DNA of 64,000 nucleotides from Basidiobolus meristosporus CBS 931.73. Its lineage: Eukaryota > Basidiobolomycota > Basidiobolomycetes > Basidiobolales > Basidiobolaceae. A program made the position numbers and the translations under genes. The notes beneath the pieces are model-generated. The model did not search any database. It saw only the letters and a program-made list of their open reading frames with translations, and was not told the origin of the DNA. Location of the stretch: positions 90,423 to 154,422 of the forward strand of contig MCFE01000148.1 of NCBI GenBank assembly GCA_002104905.1, in the 5' to 3' direction. This document shows, piece by piece, positions 40,627-64,000 of the stretch (position 1 is its first letter; each line of letters opens with the position of its first letter).

Positions 40627-41889
40627 ATGCCTGCTACCAAACCACTCATGATCCCATACCTTGGGGCCGACAAGGCTCGTGTTGGTGCTAATTCACCCAA
40701 CAAGGGGATCAGCATCCCCTATCACTCTGAGGAGAGTCTAGTCTCTCATTATTCCACCAAATTTGATAGTTGCTCCATCAAGTCTGGCTTTACCAGCATC
40801 GCCTCGACTGCACCAAGCACACCCACCAATACTAGCAATGCCGCCCACGATTCATTCACCATCGGCATGTCCTCTCTCTACAAGGTCCCCAGTAGATTCA
40901 TCTTTCGTGATGCGAAGAAGGACAGAAAGTCCTTCACATCCAAGCACTTCAGCTTCCTCTCAAACATGCTGAAGAAGCCTAGCAAGCCTTGCGAACAAAC
41001 CTTGCCCAAGCGCCAGACACGCTACTACGCACCCCTGTTGGATGCTCTCAGAAAGCGCGCTGCTCCCTCATTGAACCAGCTTTACGGTGAATTTACCGAC
41101 TCGATTTCATGTGGACCTGGCGGCGGCGTGAGAGAAACCCTCTGCCCTCGGACCGGCCACAAATACGCCGTGAAGAGCTTCCGTAAAATGAAGGAAGGAG
41201 AGAGCGAGAAGCGGTACTACGAGTGGATTAGCAATGAGGTGTACATCGCCGCCTCGTTGGTGCACGAGAACGTCATTCAAACCGTCGATGTTATCATGGA
41301 GGACAATCAAATTCACGAGGTGATGGAGTACTGCCCTCAAGATTTGTTCAATGTCATCAATGATAATGACTTGACCCCACAACAAATCAACACCTATTTC
41401 AGCCAGCTGATGCATGGGCTAGCATATCTGCATCATCGGGGGGTCGCCCACCGGGATCTGAAGTTGGAGAATCTTTGTGTTGATCAGAAAGGAACCCTGA
41501 AAATTATCGATTTCGGATGTGCGTTCATCTTTCTGGACCCCCTCAGCGAAGAGAACCGGGCCAAGGCATGCGAGCTCACCGGCTCCGATCCATACATCGC
41601 GCCAGAGATCTTTAGCAGGAAGCCCTACGATGCAGCCAAAGCCGACATCTGGTCGGCCGCTATCATCTACCTTTGCATGGTCCTGAAGAAATTCCCTTGG
41701 GATGTCGCCAAGGACACCGAAAACAACTACAAGCTCTATCAACAATATCGGGACAATGAGGACTTCTTCATCCACCTCCCCAAGGAGTCATTTCCCCTAA
41801 TCCGCAAAATGTTGGATCCCAACCCAGACACCCGTATCACAGTGAATGAGGTGTTTGAGGATAGTTGGTTCCAATCCATAACTGTCTAA
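40627..41889 (+). CDS. Fungal Ser/Thr protein kinase, NPR1/HAL-type, paralog 1
   Basis: An intronless 420-residue ORF. The kinase domain starts near residue 160: GPGGGVRE loop, AVKSF (ATP lysine), IHEVMEYCPQDL hinge, HRDLKLENLC catalytic loop, IIDFGCAF, APEIF and DIWSAAIIYLC. All catalytic residues are present. The N-terminal ~150 residues are low-complexity, with two blocks shared with paralog 2: KGISIPYHSEESL and SSLYKVPSRFIFRD. The sequence resembles the fungal NPR1/HRK1/HAL4/HAL5 group, which regulates nutrient and ion transporters at the plasma membrane; that role is inferred. Its tandem paralog lies 3.2 kb downstream on the same strand. Confidence 0.9.
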   Translation: MPATKPLMIPYLGADKARVGANSPNKGISIPYHSEESLVSHYSTKFDSCSIKSGFTSIASTAPSTPTNTSNAAHDSFTIGMSSLYKVPSRFIFRDAKKDRKSFTSKHFSFLSNMLKKPSKPCEQTLPKRQTRYYAPLLDALRKRAAPSLNQLYGEFTDSISCGPGGGVRETLCPRTGHKYAVKSFRKMKEGESEKRYYEWISNEVYIAASLVHENVIQTVDVIMEDNQIHEVMEYCPQDLFNVINDNDLTPQQINTYFSQLMHGLAYLHHRGVAHRDLKLENLCVDQKGTLKIIDFGCAFIFLDPLSEENRAKACELTGSDPYIAPEIFSRKPYDAAKADIWSAAIIYLCMVLKKFPWDVAKDTENNYKLYQQYRDNEDFFIHLPKESFPLIRKMLDPNPDTRITVNEVFEDSWFQSITV

Positions 41890-44980: not shown

Positions 44981-45087
44981 AGAGTTCAGACATCAAGCAA
45001 ATCTTGGAATTTCTTAGCAACCATTAGAATCTCTTTCGTTGTTTGACATCAGACATTCAAGCACTTGCTGCGAGTATCTCTTTGTCA

Positions 45088-46311
45088 ATGCCTATGCCTG
45101 TAACCAAATCGCCATACCACTCTCATTTGCATCCTCTGGATGACACTCCTAACAAAGGAATTCATATTCCTTACCACTCGCAGGAGAGTCTATCTGCCCA
45201 ATCCGGCTGGTGCTCTGACGACACCACAGGAAAGCTTGACCATGAAGTCTCCGTACACAACGTCCCGGTGGATGATTGCTTTACCGGCTCTATGTCGTCA
45301 CTTCGCAAGGTGCCAAGTAGGTTCGTCTTTAGAGACAACAAGAAGGATCACAAAGCGGAGCACCACAGACGGTTTGGTTTCTTCAGCCTCCATAAGAGGC
45401 ATCACGCTCCACACGACGAGCCCAAATGCAAGATCCACTCCAAAGACTATCTACCACTGCTGGACGCCCTAAGAAAACGAGACGCCCCATCCCTTAACCA
45501 ACTCTACGGCGACTTCGTTAGTGACATATGTAATGGCGCTGGCGGTGGAGTCAGGGAAACGTTCTGCCCACGCAACGGCAAGAAGTACGCGGTTAAGAGC
45601 TTTCGAAGCAAGCGTCCAGATGAGGATGAGCACCAATATTACGAGTGGATTAGTAACGAGGTCTACATTGCCGCCTCTCTATCCCACGAGAACGTAGTTC
45701 AGACTGTGGATGTGATTTTGGAGAATGGACGTATCCATGAGGTGATGGAATATTGTCCGCAGGATTTATTCAGCGTGATCCAAGACAATGAACTAACCCG
45801 GCAAGAAATCGACATATACTTCGGGCAACTCATAAAAGGCCTCGCATACCTGCATCATCGCGGGGTGGCTCATCGGGACCTCAAGCTGGAGAACCTCTGC
45901 GTGGACCAGAAAGGAATCCTCAAGATCATTGATTTTGGATGCGCCTTCATCTTCCTGGATCCATTGAGTGAGAAGAACCATGCCAATGCCATCGGGCTTG
46001 TGGGGTCTGATCCATACATCGCACCGGAGGTTTTCAGTGGCGAAGCATACGATGCCGCCAAAGCTGATGTCTGGTCGGCGGGAATCATCTATATTTGCAT
46101 GATCCTCAAGAAGTTCCCGTGGGATGTGGCGAAGCTTTCGGATTCAAACTACGCTCTGTATGTTGAGTGCCGCAAAATTAACAAATCGTTCAAAAACATC
46201 CCGCAGGCCGCCCACTCGTTGATGCGCAAGATGCTGGATCCCAATCCTGATACGCGCATCACTGTAGATGAGATATTCGAGGATAGTTGGTTCCAGACTC
46301 TTATTTCCTGA
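45088..46311 (+). CDS. Fungal Ser/Thr protein kinase, NPR1/HAL-type, paralog 2
   Basis: An intronless ORF of 407 residues from the ATG at 45088 (MPMPVTKSPYHSHLHPLDDT); the open frame upstream has only a TTG. Kinase landmarks: GAGGGVRETFCP, KYAVKSF, HEVMEYCPQDLFSVI, HRDLKLENLCVDQKG, IIDFGCAFIFLDPLSE, APEVF, DVWSAGIIYICM. The catalytic set is complete. It is very similar to paralog 1 over the kinase domain and keeps KGIHIPYHSQESL and SSLRKVPSRFVFRD, so it arose by tandem duplication. The histidine-rich linker HRRFGFFSLHKRHHAPH differs from paralog 1. Confidence 0.9.
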   Translation: MPMPVTKSPYHSHLHPLDDTPNKGIHIPYHSQESLSAQSGWCSDDTTGKLDHEVSVHNVPVDDCFTGSMSSLRKVPSRFVFRDNKKDHKAEHHRRFGFFSLHKRHHAPHDEPKCKIHSKDYLPLLDALRKRDAPSLNQLYGDFVSDICNGAGGGVRETFCPRNGKKYAVKSFRSKRPDEDEHQYYEWISNEVYIAASLSHENVVQTVDVILENGRIHEVMEYCPQDLFSVIQDNELTRQEIDIYFGQLIKGLAYLHHRGVAHRDLKLENLCVDQKGILKIIDFGCAFIFLDPLSEKNHANAIGLVGSDPYIAPEVFSGEAYDAAKADVWSAGIIYICMILKKFPWDVAKLSDSNYALYVECRKINKSFKNIPQAAHSLMRKMLDPNPDTRITVDEIFEDSWFQTLIS

Positions 46312-55522: not shown

Positions 55523-56483
55523 GGTTATCAGCCCCAATCTGCTACTCTCTGCAATGTCAGCTACTGCTATTACTGGAATTTTTCCTTCTACTGAAAAGTG
55601 GGATGGATTCAACTACCAAGTGTGGAAGGTGAAGATAAAGATGCTACTACAAGAAAGAGGCCTTTGGGATATTGTTGTGGGAGAAGAATCCCCTCCTAAA
55701 TACATGGGAGAGGAAGCCTTAAAGTACCAGAAGAAAGAACAAAGTGCCTTTAACTGCATGCCTTAATGTTAAGAACAAATTGCTAATTCAATGCTCAAGA
55801 GCAAAAACAGCAAAGAATGCCTGGAAGGCATTAAAAGACACCTATCAGTCATCTTCAGCTACTAAGAAAATGTATTTGAGACAAAAACTCTTTACTACAG
55901 AGATGCTGCCAGGAGAAGAAAAGAAAAATCTAATTAGCAGAATTACCCTGCTGGTAGATGAGATGGAATCTGTGGGTGTACCAACTACTGATGAGGATGT
56001 GATAGTTACCATCCTGAATAGCCTGACAGACAAATTTCAGGGCCTTATATCAGCTCTAGAGTCCAGAACTGAAGATTTGACCTTAAATTACATATATGGA
56101 AGGCTGTTGGATGAAGAATTAAGAAAATCAAGCGCCAATAAGAAGGAAGAAGAAAATGCTTTAATAGGCAATGACAACCAACAAAGGAGGTACCCAAAAC
56201 CCTACAAGGGCAACAGCAACCTGTTTTGCAACTACTGCAACAGGAAAGGACACACATCAGACCAGTGCTTCAAAAAGAAAGATATTCAGCAGAAAAAGCC
56301 TGAATATGGAAATGCTACAACAACTGAAGATAGACTATTCAGATTTGCACTAAATATGACCACAAACAAGGATTCTCAGACATGGTATATTGACTCTTGA
56401 GCATACCAACACTTTACACACCAAAAAGAACTTTACCCTATATCAAAAAATTCCAATTCAGAAGGTTTCATGGGTGACAGTAG
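55523..56483 (+). pseudogene. gag and protease start of a truncated Copia copy
   Basis: Gag starts MSATAITGIFPSTEKWDGFN at 55553; a frameshift near 55760 moves it to the frame that begins NVKNKLLIQCSRAKTAKNAW. It carries the CCHC knuckle CNYCNRKGHTSDQC and reaches the protease site WYIDS, where the following GGA/GGT glycine is a TGA (56398). The copy ends at 56483, where a minus-strand LTR is joined. Highly similar to Copia-2 gag. Confidence 0.88.
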
Positions 56484-56832
56484 TGTTGTAAGAGTCTTGG
56501 AGATATTGGAAGTGATTTGGAGATCAAGTAGATTATGTGGTTTTCACTTAATGATTTATTGATTGTAAGAGTAGTATTTATACTTTTACATGGTCTTGGT
56601 ATTACAAACATATAGAATAGGTTAAGGAAGGTCCCAAGAACATGTGTGCAAAGTTTGGAGCTGTTTGGACAACTTTGAGAATTTTCATGTTCTGGGTACC
56701 TGGTATTTTGGTGAAAATATTCTAAGTAAATCCTGACAAGGAATTTGGTCAGTATTCTCTAGGATTTGAGGGTAATGGTCTAAGTGACTAAGCTAGGTGA
56801 TTATTTAGGTGGAAATACAAATCTTTACAACA
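56484..56832 (-). repeat. 3' LTR of another truncated Copia-2-family copy
   Basis: 349 bp from TGTTGTAAGAG to TCTTTACAACA, followed by the polypurine tract complement CTCCCACTCAG. Confidence 0.88.
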
Positions 56833-56996
56833 CTCCCACTCAGCTAAATGTTCATACTGACTAGTCCTAATTTTGACCTAAGATATTCAAACTTGTCTCT
56901 AGCTAATGGTTTGGTAAATATGTCTGCAATCATTTCATCTGTAGGACAGTAAACTAAGCCAACTAAGTTATTCTCTATAGCTTCTGTGGTAATGGA
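56833..56996 (-). pseudogene. RNase H tail of the same truncated copy
   Basis: The minus strand matches the last ~55 codons of Copia-2 pol (LVYCPTDEMIADIFTKPLAR) and breaks at ~56996. Confidence 0.85.
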
Positions 56997-57313: not shown

Positions 57314-57340
57314 CTTAGGGTGTAGGTGTTATAGTAAGGG
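57314..57340 (+). repeat. 27-bp target duplication, left copy
   Basis: Identical to 62621-62647; begins CTTAGGG and ends GTAAGGG, so it contains telomere-like units. It brackets the retroelement unit D. Confidence 0.78.
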
Positions 57341-57687
57341 TTAGGGTTAGGGGAGGGAAAGTCACCAAGTTGGTGAAATCTTTATTTGAGTTAAGAACTA
57401 ATCTAAGTACAAATAAAGAAGCCAATTAAGAGGTCTAGAACCTCTCTAATAAGTAATCTAATTTATGTTTTGTTTCATCTCTAATGTTTGTTTCAGTAAG
57501 GTAAAGCTCATCAGGGGTAAATATGAAATTCAAGTGTTTTGGGGGAAGTACAAATTGTAGATGTTTCTGATCAATATAATCCAAGACTGGAACCCAGCCT
57601 GGGATTAGGTGTAGTAGGAAAGGTGTGTGGACTTGTAAGTAGCTCTGCCACATAGATCTTAGATGGTCCTGAGCCAGTAGTCTTGGT
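57341..57687 (-). mobile_element. Telomere-associated non-LTR-like retroelement, unit D, 3' part
   Basis: Read on the minus strand this is the 3' half of unit D. It carries the end of an ORF, an AATAAAG signal, the tail GATTTCACCAACTTGGTGAC, a short C run and two CCCTAA units. The ORF part reads LLAQDHLRSMWQSYLQVHT, IPGWVPVLDYIDQKHLQFVL and TPDELYLTE and ends ERF at 57435. It continues across Copia-2 into 62374-62620 without frame loss; together ~163 codons. It resembles the post-RT region of a LINE-like protein, but no RT motif remains, so the assignment rests on structure. Confidence 0.65.
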
Positions 57688-58037
57688 TGTTGTAAGAGTC
57701 TTGGAGATATTGGAAGTGATTTGGAGAACAAGTAGATTATGTGGTTTTCACTTAATGATTTATTGAATGTAAAAGTAGTATTTATACTTTTACATGGTCT
57801 TGGCATTACAAACACGTAGAATAGGTTAAGGAAGGTCCCAAGAACATGTGTGCAAAGTTTGGGGCTGTTTGGACAACTTTGAGAATTTTCATGTTCTGGG
57901 TACCCGGTATTTTGGTGAAAATATTCTAAGTAAATCCCGACAAGGAATTTGGTCAGTATTCTCTAGGATCTGAAGGTGATGATCTAAGTGACTAAGTTAG
58001 GTGAATATTTAGGTGGAAAATATGAATTTTTACAACA
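57688..58037 (-). repeat. Copia-2 3' LTR
   Basis: Begins TGTTGTAAGAG and ends TTTTTACAACA. The polypurine tract (GAGTGGGAG on the minus strand) lies at 58038-58046. Confidence 0.95.
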
Positions 58038-58048
58038 CTCCCACTCAG

Positions 58049-61000
58049 CTAAATGTTCATACTGACTAGTCCTAATTTTGACCTAAGATATTCAAACTTG
58101 TCTCTAGCTAATGGTTTGGTAAATATGTCTACAATCATTTCATCTGTAGGACAGTAAACTAAGCTAACTAAGTTATTCTCTATAGCTTCACGTATGAAAT
58201 GATGTCTAATATCTATGTGCTTGGTTCTAGCATGAAAAGTTGCATTTCTACCTAATTGTATACATCCTTGATTATCTTGAAATAAAGTAATAGGCATTTT
58301 TTGACATAGGCCTAAATCTGTAAAGAGCTTTCTTAACCACATTGCTTCTTTTGTAGCTTCACAGGCTGCCATATACTCTGCATCTGTAGTAGAAAGTGCT
58401 ATGGTTGGTTGCTTTCTTGAATTCCATGAAATGGCTCCTTTACAGTAAAGAAAGGTATATCCTGTGGTGGATCTTCTGTCTTCTAAATTTCGTCCCCAAT
58501 CAGCATCAGAGTATCCCACAAGATCCTGTTCTGAATCCTTATAAGTGTATCTTAAGCAGATATCAGCAGTTCCTTTTGGGTATCTAAAAATCCGCTTAAC
58601 TGCTGCAATATGATCAGATCCATAATTCTGATTATGTTGGCTGACAACTCCCACTGAATATGAGATATCTGGACGTGTTCCAAGCATGATATACATTGGA
58701 CTGCCGACCATAGATTGATAAGGAAAGTCAGGGCTTTCAGATGGCACCAAGCTCTCTTGATTTGGTTGAGTTTTGACCAAGTTAAGGTTTGTCTCCATTG
58801 GGGTAGCTGCCGGTTTGCAGTCTTCCATTTTGTACTTCTTTAGTATATCTTGAATATACTTGGATTGGCTTAGGGTAATAGTCTGGGTACTTCTGTCTAT
58901 GGAGAACTTAATCCCTAAGTAGTAACTAAGTTCTCCTAGATCGGACATCTTGAACTCCTTAGATAGGCTGGATTTAGTCTCTTCCAATGTTTCTAGGTTA
59001 TTGGCGGCTATAATAAGATCATCCACATATAGAGCTAATAGAACTGGATTTGCTCTATCTGGCTTATAGTGTATACTATAGTCAGCATTACTCCTTTTGA
59101 AACTCAAAGATTCCAAATAAGAATCTATCTTGCAATTCCAGGCTCTTGGTGATTGTTTGAGACCATATAGTGACTTTTTAAGCTTGCAGACCAAATGGGG
59201 GTTATCTTGGTCAACAAACCCATCAGGCTGGTCCATATACACATCCTCATCAAGTTCTCCATTCAAAAATGCAGTTTTTACATCCATTTGATGAATAAAA
59301 AACTTATATTTGGCTGCAATAGCCAATATTAATCTGATGGAATTAAACTTGGCTACCGGTGCAAAGGTCTCAGTATAGTCAAGTCCTTTTGTTTGAGAGT
59401 ATCCTTTGGCTACAAGTCTTGCTTTGTATCTTTCAATTGTACCATCAGCCTTGTATTTTGTCTTGAAGACCCATCTGCATCCAATTGATTTTCGGTTGAT
59501 TGGTAATTTGACTAAGTCCCAAGTTTGATTTTCCATCAGTGCCTGATATTCCTCAGTCATTGCAGATCTCCAAAACTTTGTCTGAGGGCTATTTAGGGCC
59601 TCTTTTACAGTCTGGGGTTCATCAACATGGACTGAATAGGCATAGGCTAAGTTTGTACCCTCATTGATATAGTAATTTGGGCTATTTCTTGTCCGATTGG
59701 ATCTCCGGGCATTTGATACTGGAATGATCACTTCTGGGATATTCCTGGGCACTGATTCTGGCTGAACCACGGTTGTAGAGTCCTCTGGAGTGAAAAAATT
59801 TTCATTGTTTTGCTCTGATTCAATCCTGACAATTGGTGGACTTGAGATCAAATTTTTGTCATCATCTGATGTCATTTTTTGTGAAAATTTTGAATTTTCA
59901 TCAAACAACACATCCCTGGACTTGATCAGCTTCTTTGCTTTGGTATTGTAGAGTCCGTATGCCTTACTCTCATTGCAGTAGCCCAAAAATATGCATTTTA
60001 CACTTTTTGGCTCAAATTTTGACTGATTTCCGGCCAGTTTTTTGGCATATGCTGTACACCCAAATATTCTTAGATGTTCTGCACTTGGTCTGTATCCATA
60101 CCATGCTTCAAATGGAGTAGAATCACAAAGTATTCTGTTATAACTCCTATTTTTAAGATATACAGCAGTGGCAACTGATTCCGCCCAAAAATCATAGGAT
60201 AATTTTTGATCATGGATCATAGATCTTGCCATATCAATTATTGATCTGTTAGCTTGTTCTGCTACTCCATTTTGCTGTGGGGAGTATGGTACAGTAGTCT
60301 CTTGCTTTATCCCATGAATTTTGCAGAAGTGGATGAAGAGTTTTGAGGTATATTCTCCACCATTGTCAGAGCGTATTTTCTTGATTTTTTCACCAGTTTC
60401 TCTCTCCACCATGGCTTTAAACTCCCTGAGCTTAGACAGAGCTTCTTCCTTTCTCTCCATGAAGTAGACCCATGTGTATCTAGTATAATCATCAATAAAA
60501 GTGATTAAATACTTCATCCCGCCTAAGGATAAATTTTGCATAGGTCCACACAGATCTGAGTGAATTAGATCTAATTTTTTCTTAGTTTTGATTAACCCAG
60601 AGCTCTTGAACGGTTGTCTGGCTTGTTTCCCATATATGCAGGTTTCACAGTGCTCCAAATTAGCTGGGGGATCAATTTTCACTCCAGAAATTAGCTGATC
60701 TTTGATCATTTTACGCAAATAATCAAAATTGATGTGTCCAAATTTCCTGTGCCAAAGCATTGGTGTTTCTTCATTTAAGTAACTGATATTGGCTTCCAGA
60801 TATGATGGAATATAAGTCAACTTGTATAGGTTCTGATCTCTGATGCCCGAAGCAATATGAGCACCATTTTGATCAGTGATCCTGCATCCAGAATTGTCAA
60901 AACTGAAACTGAGTCCTTCTGCTGTGGCCTTGCTTACAGAGAGTAGGTTCTTGGGTATTTCTGGTACATAGAGTACTTCTTTAAAGGTCAGTGTATGGCT

Positions 61001-61072
61001 TCCTTCACTGCTTCTAAGGTTTACTTGGATAGTTCCTTCTCCCACTGCATCAAGTGTTCTATCGTCACCCAT
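58049..61072 (-). CDS. Copia-2 pol: integrase, reverse transcriptase, RNase H
   Basis: A 1007-codon open frame; the M at 61072 (MGDDRTLDA) is internal to the natural polyprotein, whose protease site DSGA lies upstream. Order: protease end LYVPEIPKNLLSVS (~30), integrase finger HRKFGH and CETC (~85-140), D,D,E core HSDLCGPM, RSDNGGEYTSK, NGVAEQANRSI (~170-285), RT with QMDVKTAFLNGEL and LYVDDLIIAANN (~620-730), RNase H SDADWGRN, TDAEYMAACEAT and QDNQGC (~870-960). All catalytic residues are present. It copies RNA to cDNA and inserts it. The frame is cut from gag by the one-base deletion near 61180. Confidence 0.92.
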   Translation of the reverse strand: MGDDRTLDAVGEGTIQVNLRSSEGSHTLTFKEVLYVPEIPKNLLSVSKATAEGLSFSFDNSGCRITDQNGAHIASGIRDQNLYKLTYIPSYLEANISYLNEETPMLWHRKFGHINFDYLRKMIKDQLISGVKIDPPANLEHCETCIYGKQARQPFKSSGLIKTKKKLDLIHSDLCGPMQNLSLGGMKYLITFIDDYTRYTWVYFMERKEEALSKLREFKAMVERETGEKIKKIRSDNGGEYTSKLFIHFCKIHGIKQETTVPYSPQQNGVAEQANRSIIDMARSMIHDQKLSYDFWAESVATAVYLKNRSYNRILCDSTPFEAWYGYRPSAEHLRIFGCTAYAKKLAGNQSKFEPKSVKCIFLGYCNESKAYGLYNTKAKKLIKSRDVLFDENSKFSQKMTSDDDKNLISSPPIVRIESEQNNENFFTPEDSTTVVQPESVPRNIPEVIIPVSNARRSNRTRNSPNYYINEGTNLAYAYSVHVDEPQTVKEALNSPQTKFWRSAMTEEYQALMENQTWDLVKLPINRKSIGCRWVFKTKYKADGTIERYKARLVAKGYSQTKGLDYTETFAPVAKFNSIRLILAIAAKYKFFIHQMDVKTAFLNGELDEDVYMDQPDGFVDQDNPHLVCKLKKSLYGLKQSPRAWNCKIDSYLESLSFKRSNADYSIHYKPDRANPVLLALYVDDLIIAANNLETLEETKSSLSKEFKMSDLGELSYYLGIKFSIDRSTQTITLSQSKYIQDILKKYKMEDCKPAATPMETNLNLVKTQPNQESLVPSESPDFPYQSMVGSPMYIMLGTRPDISYSVGVVSQHNQNYGSDHIAAVKRIFRYPKGTADICLRYTYKDSEQDLVGYSDADWGRNLEDRRSTTGYTFLYCKGAISWNSRKQPTIALSTTDAEYMAACEATKEAMWLRKLFTDLGLCQKMPITLFQDNQGCIQLGRNATFHARTKHIDIRHHFIREAIENNLVSLVYCPTDEMIVDIFTKPLARDKFEYLRSKLGLVSMNI

Positions 61073-61180
61073 GAAAACCTTCTTAATTGGAATTTCTTGA
61101 TATTGGGTAAAAAGTTCTTTTTGGTGTGTAAAGTGTTGAGAAGCTCCAGAGTCAATATACCACGTCTGAGAATCCTTGTT

Positions 61181-62019
61181 GTGGTCATATTTAGTGCAGA
61201 TATGAATAGTCTATCTTCAGTTGTTGCAGCATTTCCATATTCAGGCTTCTTTTGCTGATAATCTCTCTTTTTGAAACACCAGTCTGATGTGTGTCCTTTC
61301 CTTTTGCAGTAGTTGCAAAATAGATTGCTGTTGCCTTTGTAGGGTCTTGGGTACCTCCTTTGTTGGTTATCATTGCTTATTAAAGCATTTTCTTCTTCCT
61401 TCTTATTGGCGCTTGATTTTCTTAATTCTTCATCCAGGAGCCTTCCATATACGTAATTTAAGGTCAAATCTTCAGTTCTGGACTCTAGGGCTGATACAAG
61501 GCCCTGAAACTCGTCTGTCAGGCTATTCAGGATGGTAACTATCACATCCTCATCAGTAGTTGGTATGCCCACAGATTCCATCTCATCTACCAGCAGGGTA
61601 ATTCTGTTAATTAGATTTTTCATTTCTTCTCCTGGCAGCATCTTTGTAGTAAAGAATTTTCTTCTCAGATACATTTTCTTGGCAGCTGAACATGACTGGT
61701 AGGTGTCTTCTAATGCCTTCCAGGCATTCTTTGCCGTTTCTGCTCTTGAGCATTGAATTAGCAATTTGTCCTTGACATTAAGGCAAATGCAGTTAAAGGC
61801 ACTTTGTTCTTTCTTCTGGTACTTTAAGGCTTCCTCTCCCACGTTTTTAGGAGGGCATTCTTCTCCCATGACAATATCCCAAAGGCCTCTTTCTTGCAGC
61901 AGCATCTTCATCTTCACCTTCCACACTTGGTAGTTAGATCCATCCAACTTTTCAGCAGAGGGAAAAATTCCAGTAATAGCAGTAGTAGACATTGCAGAGA
62001 GTGACAGCTTGGGGCTCAT
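61181..62019 (-). CDS. Copia-2 gag
   Basis: The frame opens at an ATG inside the primer-binding site (62019, MSPKLSLS) or nine codons later (61992, MSTTAITGIFPS). Body: NYQVWKVKMKMLLQERGLWD, AFNCICLNVKDKLLIQCSRA, LPGEEMKNLINRITLLVDEM (UBN2-type gag), then CCHC knuckle CNYCKRKGHTSDWC (~260). Gag assembles the virus-like particle and binds RNA. After 61180 the reading goes out of frame and stops at 61021 because of the missing A. The upstream open frame to 62265 is LTR and not coding. Confidence 0.9.
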
Positions 62020-62023
62020 AACC
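62011..62023 (-). promoter_or_regulatory. Copia-2 primer-binding site (initiator tRNA-Met anticodon arm)
   Basis: Minus strand GGTTATGAGCCCC, the same as in Copia-1, next to the 5' LTR. It pairs with the anticodon stem-loop of initiator tRNA-Met, not its 3' end. The ATG in it is the first ATG of gag. Confidence 0.8.
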
Positions 62024-62373
62024 TGTTGTAAGAGTCTTGGAGATATTGGAAGTGATTTGGAGAACAAGTAGATTATGTGGTTTTCACTTAATGATTTATT
62101 GAATGTAAAAGTAGTATTTATACTTTTACATGGTCTTGGCATTACAAACACGTAGAATAGGTTAAGAAAGGTCCCAAGAACATGTGTGCAAAGTTTGGGG
62201 CTGTTTGGACAACTTTGAGAATTTTCATGTTCTGGGTACCTGATATTTTGGTGAAAATATTCCAAGTAAATCCCGACAAGGAATTTGGTCAGTATTCTCT
62301 AGGATTTGAAGGTGATGATCTAAGTGACCAAGTTAGGTGAATATTTAGGTGGAAAATACAAATTTTTACAACA
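62024..62373 (-). repeat. Copia-2 5' LTR with promoter signals
   Basis: Pairs with 57688-58037. On the minus strand TATAAATA lies at 62123-62116 and AATAAA at 62100-62095, the likely promoter and polyadenylation signals. Confidence 0.93.
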
Positions 62374-62620
62374 TTGGTTTCTCAGCTTTTTGAAGTTTTG
62401 AAGCAAGCTCTGTTACTACAGCAGAGCCAACCAGGGTGTGCCAGCAAGAAGATTTCAGGGAGGAGTTAGATTGAAGCCATTGTTTGATGGAGGGGTTATG
62501 TGATTTCTGAAGTTTGACTAGGTAAGAAGCACGGAGATAGATCATTTGGATTTGGTATGGGTAGAACCCAAAGGCTCCATTAGCTGCATGGATATAGGGA
62601 GATACTGGAAGATAAGGTAC
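62374..62620 (-). mobile_element. Retroelement unit D, 5' part
   Basis: Minus-strand ORF open for ~80 codons: VPYLPVSPYIHAANGAFGFY, QIQMIYLRASYLVKLQKSHN, CWHTLVGSAVVTELASKLQK. It joins in frame, across the TTGGT duplication, to the ORF at 57687-57435. It is truncated at 62620, where the second copy of the 27-bp duplication starts, as expected for a 5'-truncated target-primed insertion. Confidence 0.65.
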
Positions 62621-62647
62621 CTTAGGGTGTAGGTGTTATAGTAAGGG
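62621..62647 (+). repeat. 27-bp target duplication, right copy
   Basis: Identical to 57314-57340. Confidence 0.78.
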
Positions 62648-62666
62648 CTAGAAAAAGGTTAGAAGA

Positions 62667-62735
62667 GCAGGGGGTCTGGGGGACGCAGTCCCCTAGAGAA
62701 TAAAAAAGCAGGGGGTTTGGGGGATGCAATCCCCC
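62667..62735 (+). repeat. Two G-rich fold-back repeats
   Basis: 62667-62693 and 62708-62735 are ~27-bp direct repeats (GCAGGGGGTCTGGGGGACGC type). Each can fold on itself (GGGGGAC...GTCCCC). Confidence 0.7.
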
Positions 62736-63192
62736 ATACTGCTCCCATACTCTTTAAATTCCCGTTGGATTACTTTTCTCTCATTCTTGGTTCTGGTCCC
62801 TTAGGGTTAGAATTCCTCCTCCTAACCCTTATCACCCTAACCATAAATATTTTTACCCTACAATTGGCACACTGTCTGCTCATATGGTGGGCATGTCTGG
62901 GCCAATATTTGTCTCCCTATACTGTCCATACGCTCTGTATAAGTCTTGATTACTATTTAATTAATAAATTGTTATTTTTAATGTATATCTAATACTTAAT
63001 GGGATTCATCCCAATCTGACCACAATCCCATATTTTGATAAGCTTTGGGCACCATAAATTGCGTGGCCCTAATATGATAAAAAAATTCATGGCCAATACA
63101 AATTTTCTGTAACCCAATTGCTTTTACCAAATATAAAGTGTATCCAAAAGTTCAATATATATTATGGCTATAATAGAAACTTTATTTGACAC
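62736..63192. other. Subtelomeric AT-rich spacer
   Basis: No clear gene. Contains scattered telomere-like words (CCCTTAGGGTTAG at 62798, CTAACCCTTATCACCCTAACC at 62820-62845, less one base). Probably a decayed relative of the neighbouring units. Confidence 0.45.
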
Positions 63193-63442
63193 CTTAGGGG
63201 GGAGACAGTCACCAACAGGTGAAATCTTTATTTCAGTTGAAACAAAGAAGCCAGCGCTACTGTTGTAGCTTTGATACAAGAGTGTGTAGCTGAGGGGAAT
63301 TTGTAGGTAAGTTAATAAGAAGTGATGATAGTTCTTCAGTGCTCAAGACACTGTTCAGTGGGAAGGGGGGTAGCAAGAGAGGTAAGAATGACTTGTGAAC
63401 AACATTAATGAGGGGAATGTGATAAGGATTGATATTCATCAT
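63193..63442 (-). mobile_element. Telomere-associated retroelement, unit C
   Basis: On the minus strand a short ORF end (NVVHKSFLPLLLPPFPLNSV, TEELSSLLINLPTNSPQLHT, stop at 63257) is followed by AAATAAAGATTTCACC, GTTGGTGACTGTC and CCCCCCTAAG. The coding end differs from unit D but the 3' tail is shared. Bounded by TTAGGG-like sequence on both sides. Confidence 0.62.
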
Positions 63443-63655
63443 AAGGGTTAGGGGGGGAGGAAAGTCACCAAGTGGTGAAATCTTTATTTACTTATGACAA
63501 GTATCTAAAGAAGCTAAGTTAATCTGAAGTTATTCCTAGAAAGCTAGGTTTGAGAGATATCTTCCTGGTAAGCCAGGTCTGAGAGTTGAGAAGCTGAGTG
63601 GTACTATAGTTCCTAGTTAGCTAGGTCTGAGAGTGGTTTCCTGGAAAGCCAGGCC
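63443..63655 (-). mobile_element. Telomere-associated retroelement, unit B
   Basis: Starts (plus strand) AAGGGTTAGGGGGGG, then AAAGTCACCAAGTGGTGAAA, TCTTTATTTACTTATGACAA and four short palindromes. No ORF. Its first ~95 bp are repeated in unit A. Confidence 0.65.
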
Positions 63656-63766
63656 TTAGGGTTAGGGGGGGGGGAGGAAAGTCACCAAGTGGTGAAATCT
63701 TTATTTACTTATGACAAGTATCTAAAGAAGCCAAGTTAATCTGAAGTAATTCCTAGAAAGCTAGGT
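63656..63766 (-). mobile_element. Telomere-associated retroelement, unit A
   Basis: 111-bp shorter version of unit B with only two or three differences over ~90 bp; ends directly at the terminal telomere array. Confidence 0.65.
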
Positions 63767-64000
63767 CTTAGGGTTAGGGTTAGGGTTAGGGTTAGGGTTA
63801 GGGTTAGGGTTAGGGTTAGGGTTAGGGTTAGGGTTAGGGTTAGGGTTAGGGTTAGGGTTAGGGTTAGGGTTAGGGTTAGGGTTAGGGTTAGGGTTAGGGT
63901 TAGGGTTAGGGTTAGGGTTAGGGTTAGGGTTAGGGTTAGGGTTAGGGTTAGGGTTAGGGTTAGGGTTAGGGTTAGGGTTAGGGTTAGGGTTAGGGTTAGG
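63767..64000 (+). repeat. Telomere, (TTAGGG)n
   Basis: About 38 perfect tandem TTAGGG units reaching the end of the window. The orientation shows this is the right chromosome end. Confidence 0.98.

Follow-up and report, generated by a model that had tools for sequence, protein, structure and literature searches.

The 64,000-nucleotide window analysed here is the end of contig C367 (154,422 bp; MCFE01000148.1) of Basidiobolus meristosporus CBS 931.73. Four units near the contig terminus are very probably 5'-truncated copies of telomere-targeted non-long-terminal-repeat (non-LTR) retrotransposons of the apurinic/apyrimidinic endonuclease (APE) type, namely two long interspersed elements (LINE A and LINE C), together with a short interspersed element (SINE)-like element that shares their 3' hairpin tail. 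BLAST against longer copies in the genome (89,006,234 bases in 1,311 contigs were searched) assigned the four units to these three types: one LINE C, one LINE A, and two SINE-like fragments. The anatomy, orientation, location, and junctions of the units, and the target-site duplication (TSD) of one of them, are read directly from the sequence.

Within the window, the tail (minus strand AATAAAGATTTCACC) has just four occurrences, starting at 57372, 63218, 63474, and 63691 and sharing a single orientation, and at least one TTAGGG is found on the 3' (interior) flank of every unit. All four units and their linkers are on the minus strand. Unit 1 is the LINE C copy. Its 3' part (57355-57687; BLAST match 57355-57688, 97% to the copy in locus L071) holds the end of the second open reading frame (ORF2; stop codon TAG at 57435-57437), the 3' untranslated region (3'UTR), and the hairpin tail with the loop AACTT; the coded end is similar to the C-terminus of the protein relative P0007. 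Its 5' remainder (62374-62620; BLAST match 62374-62621, 96% to the L071 copy) is truncated within ORF2 and matches residues 724-807 of P0007 at 69%. These two parts are split by a Ty1/copia LTR element (57688-62373, minus strand), which was delimited from its ORFs and flanks, the LTR type being our own reading of the proteins. The insert is bounded by the 5-bp TSD TTGGT (57683-57687 and 62374-62378). Unit 2 is the last ~245 nt of LINE A (63203-63447; BLAST match 63202-63447, 99.6% to L073). It consists of the C-terminus of the reverse transcriptase (RT) ORF, the 3'UTR, and the hairpin tail with the loop TGTT, is 5'-truncated, and has a linker of TTAGGG and a G-run (63194-63202). Unit 3 is a 3' fragment of the SINE-like element with the hairpin loop ACTT (63457-63655; BLAST match 63457-63659, 96% to a full-length copy in L069), and its linker is again TTAGGG and a G-run (63448-63457). 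Unit 4, the outermost, is a second SINE-like 3' fragment (63675-63767; BLAST match 63674-63771, 98%) with a linker of TTAGGGTTAGGG and a G-run (63656-63674). It is followed by the terminal telomere array (TTAGGG)38 on the plus strand, which forms the contig end (63768-64000).

A first-pass annotation of this DNA had described four truncated units that share a tail in one orientation and are flanked by TTAGGG-like sequence. The tail pattern at the four sites and the BLAST matches to longer copies confirm this description, and its coordinates are correct to about 20 nt. It had missed both the Ty1/copia split of unit 1 and a perfect 27-bp direct repeat that bounds this unit. Its proposal of several related subfamilies is right, but the actual set is two LINE families and a SINE-like element that shares with them the 3' tail only.

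The 27-bp repeat, CTTAGGGTGTAGGTGTTATAGTAAGGG, is an exact TSD located in degenerate TTAGGG sequence on both sides of unit 1. The left copy is at 57314-57340, and the right copy, identical to it, is at 62621-62647. On the tail side only, TTAGGGTTAGGGG is found; the linker TTAGGGTTAGGGGA at the 3' end of the unit (57341-57354) is missing beside the right TSD copy. Thus, the insertion of unit 1 added two TTAGGG repeats, and since these are present on the tail side only, they came with the insertion. They are best explained as having been copied from the 3' end of the RNA. No TSD of 12 nt or longer was found at the distal units of the window. Repeats near several other junctions in the genome were rejected as TSDs: by eye and by BLAST they correspond to LINE or SINE sequence of which further copies exist in the array or within the insert itself.

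Among 66 distinct 3' junctions, one full TTAGGG is present in 47 and two are present in eight, with G-runs of 3-10, and the flank beyond the junction ends in GGG in 31. In contigs C1-C91, a perfect TTAGGG lies within 20 nt of 84 of the 95 tails. BLAST mapping showed that, in the arrays, the truncated end of one unit is linked to the tail of the next by about one TTAGGG and a G-run; such joins without a TSD are as expected of addition to an open end. When tail folding was compared with that of shuffled sequences, a clear signal was obtained for LINE A (z -4.5, a value that includes a second stem). In a set of 66 tails collected with a looser pattern, which differs from the set of 66 junctions, 59 have both strands of the stem exactly preserved, which leaves no covariation to score.

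A genome-wide search for the exact pattern AATAAAGATTTCACC-N2..8-GGTGACT gave 1,524 matches (123 forward and 1,401 reverse). The backward control gave no match, which means that this recurrence is not due to chance. Starts of telomere arrays numbered 345 forward and six reverse (control, 0 and 1), counts that in places include several starts per array. Therefore, tails and telomeres are mostly in a common orientation, and the contigs seem to run toward a telomere at their right end. The first-pass annotation had named copies lying mainly in or next to telomeric repeats as support for its reading, and this is borne out on contigs of known length: all 25 tails on six contigs longer than 170 kb are no more than 22.1 kb away from the right end. 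Likewise, all 12 LINE A ORF1/ORF2 boundaries on nine contigs longer than 100 kb are within 6.5 kb of it. In contigs C1-C95, the tail is present in 14 of the 16 that have an array start and in 14 of the 79 that lack one (Fisher p 1.7e-7). Since some arrays escape the array pattern, this association is probably understated. Telomerase is probably present in this fungus as well, because a telomerase RNA-binding domain is encoded on contig C880 (two matches that resemble exons, with E 1.6e-8 and 9.7e-7, one of them interrupted by a TAG). It should also be mentioned that contig C424 carries 5' ends of the SINE-like element at either terminus, facing in opposite directions (minus strand at 141-687 and plus strand at 311584-312351); for this reason it may represent a whole chromosome of ~313 kb.

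LINE A is ~4.6 kb long and consists of ORF1, an in-frame UGA CUA, and an ORF2 of 922 amino acids with an AP-endonuclease-like domain and an RT domain. Its 5' end, TCTTTAAATTAGTCAACG, is reached by three copies. In L080 and L081 this end directly follows CCCTAACCC, and in L084 it lies inside ~2.5 tandem repeats of ~100 bp. A tandem repeat of 119 bp was also seen in a LINE C copy (L071:2255-2776). The open ORF1 frame has 523 codons, ~502 of them from the first Met, and contains a zinc-ribbon-like CPNCGNKG...CKC motif and a coiled-coil-like stretch; Pfam matches in this region are weak. Among the best 49 of 1,336 ORF2 candidates, 46 are stop-free, the open frame is exactly 922 amino acids long in 48, and 48 are on the minus strand. 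The ratio of nonsynonymous to synonymous polymorphism (pN/pS) of ORF2 was 0.34 (last 700 residues, four copies), indicating moderate purifying selection. Protein relatives of the LINE A ORF include two from the same strain, P0005 (98% identical over 27% of the query) and P0006 (63% over 46%).

The first-pass annotation had assigned the units to non-LTR elements with no RT motif in the window. In the longer copies, the tail is indeed preceded by an RT ORF (RVT_1, E 2e-24 to 3e-25), which bears out the assignment. For LINE A ORF2 the Pfam match to RVT_1 has an E of 2.6e-25, and the best PDB match of the RT is LINE-1 ORF2p (E 6e-13). The N-terminal region matches Exo_endo_phos_2 (PF14529) at E 2.9e-4, under Pfam's curated cut-off. 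A structure model of ORF2 gave Foldseek matches to LINE-1 ORF2p, to many AP endonucleases from E 1.7e-6, and to the TRAS1 endonuclease at E 1.9e-5. The mean predicted local distance difference test score (pLDDT) of the model was 47.9 overall, with block means of 58-84 over residues 1-130, and only the endonuclease part is usable. The motifs LNxNS, GDLN, and SDH are present in ORF2. The CCHC and RHD/N motifs of the restriction-enzyme-like (REL) endonuclease type had no match in LINE A, P0001, P0003, P0004, or P0007. LINE A is thus predicted, from sequence motifs and the model, to carry an N-terminal APE-like endonuclease. AP endonucleases have their catalytic Glu at about the place of ORF2 residues 32-34; these residues in L073, and the corresponding ones in P0001 and P0003, are IDV, that is, there is an Asp near this position.

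Ty3/gypsy elements were also considered as a source of the tail and were rejected. Three RVT_1 matches that we read (L040, L054, and L066) are of the Ty3 type by our own reading, and the tail motif is present in none of the 30 loci L039-L068.

ORF1 of LINE A ends in TGA, and ORF2 continues in frame with CTA CCT GAA. The TGA CTA junction is present in 12 distinct copies (13 loci, of which L077 and L080 are one copy; two copies are truncated just before the stop). A search with NNN at the stop position found 140 genomic sites, and UGA CUA was present in all 100 among the matches listed. Readthrough is well known for the context UGA CUA. ORF2 has its first in-frame AUG at codon 142, downstream of the GDLN motif (residue 125), so that a start at this AUG would cost most of the endonuclease. 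Relatives of ORF1 that are 35-60% identical have the same end point (P0197, P0199, and P0202) or end within a few residues of it (P0200 and P0201); P0198, from Basidiobolus ranarum, is without the terminal part of ORF1. P0197 and P0002 are recorded with contigs of equal length, as are P0199 and P0001, which suggests that each pair belongs to one element. The simplest reading of the junction is that ORF2 is probably made by readthrough of the UGA.

The nearest protein relative of LINE C is P0007, which is 48% identical to LINE A. A search with P0007 gave 55 matches in the genome, the best of them 65% identical, and 17 of the 55 cover residues 5-889 with just one TAG. This TAG was considered as a defect or a recoding site and was rejected as such: it is the natural ORF2 end in the three copies read (the window, L038, and L071). 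Because these 17 long copies have no stop besides the natural TAG, LINE C may be a second coding LINE family. Its members include unit 1 and L071:322-2300. The description given here is of ORF2 and the 3' part, the 5' region in L011 being too decayed to read. In an RT tree of 60 domains (the best 45 and the named ones, out of 194 with a usable match), LINE A, LINE C, P0001-P0004, and P0007 form one branch with full support (Shimodaira-Hasegawa-like approximate likelihood-ratio test, SH-aLRT, 100) and a stem of 1.66. The tree does not fix the place of this branch among the APE-type clades, because the stem is very long and stands beside another long branch. The next relatives after P0007 are ~30% identical; among those named are ones from insects, a rotifer, and an ascomycete, and one called a jockey element.

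The third element is ~520 bp long and non-autonomous. Twelve copies span the 5' end to the tail and are 91.7-98.5% identical; 11 are 519-524 nt long, and one with an internal deletion is 445 nt. A B-box (GGTTCRANYCC) is present at positions 56-60 in 11 of the 12 copies, the chance expectation being 0.0014 per copy on one strand, and an A-box-like motif, with the pattern relaxed at one place, is present in 10. Visible similarity to the LINEs covers roughly the final 33 nt. This stretch is nearer to LINE C than to LINE A; it departs from LINE C in one nucleotide of the loop length and in one C. The exact 5' end occurs 213 times in the genome, and it is followed by TTAGGG within 12 nt in 98 of the first 100 among the matches listed. 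The element is thus considered to be a SINE-like partner of the LINEs, with putative A- and B-box-like sites for RNA polymerase III.

From these features we infer the priming chemistry, the recognition of the hairpin, the readthrough, and the mobilization of the SINE-like element in trans. ORF2 would be made by stop-codon readthrough of ORF1, and its RT would recognize the 3' hairpin. The RNA would end not in poly(A) but in a C-run followed by a CCCUAA-like sequence, which would pair with a GGG/TTAGGG 3' end. Such an end might be provided by an endonuclease nick in interstitial telomere-like DNA, as for unit 1 with its 27-bp TSD, or by an exposed or eroded chromosome end, as for the distal units at which no TSD was found. 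The complementary DNA would then be copied outward from the chromosome interior, which would place the 3' ends proximal and the truncated 5' ends distal. Telomerase repeats would cap the outermost unit.

The arrays might instead have grown mainly by recombination among a small number of old insertions, through unequal exchange or break-induced replication, and MoTeR arrays are reported to expand in this way (PMC7367193). In L069, two adjacent LINE A fragments have near-equal truncation points (2715 and 2712 in A3) and three full or near-full SINE-like copies are in tandem; in several contigs the full-length SINE 5' ends are spaced ~527 bp apart. However, many neighbours in L069, L071, L002, L003, and L006 differ in element type or truncation point, and the G-runs vary in length, so we regard recombination as an unlikely main source. 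The 5' truncation, in turn, might have followed insertion, by terminal erosion and telomerase healing and not by RT drop-off. Truncation of MoTeR with telomere seeding is documented in the same source (PMC7367193), and the Basidiobolus genome encodes the telomerase RNA-binding domain. The truncated 5' end of unit 1, however, adjoins the 27-bp TSD and no telomere array, which means that this unit was truncated during insertion. Erosion is about as improbable a general explanation as recombination.

The ~520-bp element might be no more than a LINE that suffered a deletion, in the manner of MoTeR2 relative to MoTeR1, and its B-box might have arisen by chance. The lack of a tRNA match would agree with this. 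On the other hand, with pieces of LINE A and the 3' piece of LINE C as references, its BLAST matches remain separate, the visible shared stretch is confined to the 33 nt described above, and the boxes recur in nearly all copies. A deleted LINE seems the least likely of the alternatives considered here. As for ORF2, its translation might start by reinitiation at a near-cognate codon right after the stop (CUG at codon 5 or UUG at codon 6). Both codons are directly 3' of the stop, no AUG precedes codon 142, and the relative P0001 is recorded with a Met near that place. Still, the same frame, the zero spacing, and the UGA CUA context are the profile expected of a readthrough site. Reinitiation is doubtful on this account, though it deserves somewhat more weight than the other alternatives.

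Several observations weigh against the interpretation of the units as retroelements added at telomeres by the route described. Tails run in the opposite direction in 123 of 1,524 cases, a larger share than among array starts (six of 351). There is one TSD only: none was accepted at the other 65 junctions, many of which have too little flank to judge. Eleven of the 66 junctions are without a full TTAGGG unit, and a T6 run, the mark of copied poly(A), lies near one of the 66. Tail folding is clear for LINE A only (z -1.2 for the SINE-like element and -0.9 for LINE C). The endonuclease match is under the cut-off of Pfam, and the ORF2 model is poor overall (pLDDT 47.9). The pN/pS of ORF1 is 0.69 (three copies), a sign of weak purifying selection. 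Constancy of the stop codon is weak evidence, because the site sits in near-identical copies. No tRNA was detected in the SINE-like element by ARAGORN or Rfam, and the arrays may be derived in part from recombination.

Other features of the window lie farther inside. A partial Ty1/copia gag ORF (55744-56400, plus strand) and an LTR-like stretch (~56486-56840) resemble, by our own reading, the copia element inside unit 1. Two paralogous protein-kinase-like ORFs of 420 and 422 amino acids (also our own reading) are on the plus strand at 40627-41889 and 45043-46311. Rfam gave no match in the window, and ARAGORN found no tRNA in the window or in L069.

The first-pass annotation had drawn a parallel with MoTeR of Magnaporthe. 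MoTeR1 and MoTeR2 and FoTeR of Fusarium group with CRE/SLACS and have an REL endonuclease, which is C-terminal in FoTeR (PMC12857005, PMC7367193). The parallel holds for behaviour: all are fungal elements embedded at telomeres with truncated copies (PMC12857005, PMC7367193), and, as in MoTeR, head-to-tail arrays are joined by TTAGGG and an autonomous member is accompanied by a non-autonomous one (PMC7367193). The abstract on FoTeR also names upstream tandem repeats, which are comparable to those of LINE A and LINE C. Membership does not hold. In the Basidiobolus LINEs, the predicted endonuclease is APE-like and N-terminal and REL/CCHC motifs are absent, and assignment to the REL-type MoTeR/FoTeR group was therefore rejected. 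Moreover, MoTeR2 shares both ends with MoTeR1, whereas the SINE-like element is seen to share the 3' tail only.

SART1 and TRAS1 of Bombyx are similar in the APE-type endonuclease, in the telomere-repeat targets, and in the retained telomere repeats, and SART1 also has two ORFs (PMC7265360). Yet SART1 ends in poly(A), in contrast to the C-run and CCCTAA of the Basidiobolus junctions, and both Bombyx elements insert at a fixed place in TTAGG (PMC7265360). LINE A further differs in having ORF1 and ORF2 in one frame across UGA. This comparison is one of element features. HeT-A and TART of Drosophila form head-to-tail terminal arrays as well. The 3' end is proximal in these arrays. In Basidiobolus, by contrast, the ends are capped by telomere repeats and a telomerase RNA-binding domain is encoded. 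Endonuclease-deficient Penelope-like elements (Athena and Coprina) have a telomere-complementary 3' end; they have a Penelope-type RT and no APE domain, whereas the Basidiobolus RT matches LINE-1 ORF2p and an APE-like domain is present. LINE/SINE pairs are known in which the SINE shares the 3' tail of the partner LINE, and the Basidiobolus pair differs in sitting at chromosome ends. In stringent-type LINEs, the LINE protein recognizes the RNA of this tail (PMC4176376, PMC5135761). In a limited search of titles and abstract openings, no mention of telomeric retroelements of Basidiobolus or of a telomere-targeted SINE was found.

We tentatively propose, with a confidence slightly short of even, that Basidiobolus keeps, beside telomerase, a complete LINE and SINE system whose RNAs would end in telomere C-strand sequence and be copied onto ends like the template of telomerase, with ORF2 produced in fusion with ORF1 through readthrough of UGA CUA. 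If this is true, fungi would have a telomere LINE of the APE type that is independent of MoTeR and FoTeR, together with a telomere-targeted SINE. The fungal telomere-targeted retrotransposons described in the sources cited here, MoTeR and FoTeR, belong to the CRE/REL group. If an early-diverging fungus has a lineage of the APE type, telomere targeting would have had more than one origin among fungi, and a SINE on the same route would mean that this route is usable in trans. Since Basidiobolus combines over 1,500 tails, dozens of stop-free coding copies, and a telomerase domain in one genome, addition by retroelements and by telomerase could be compared there at the same ends.

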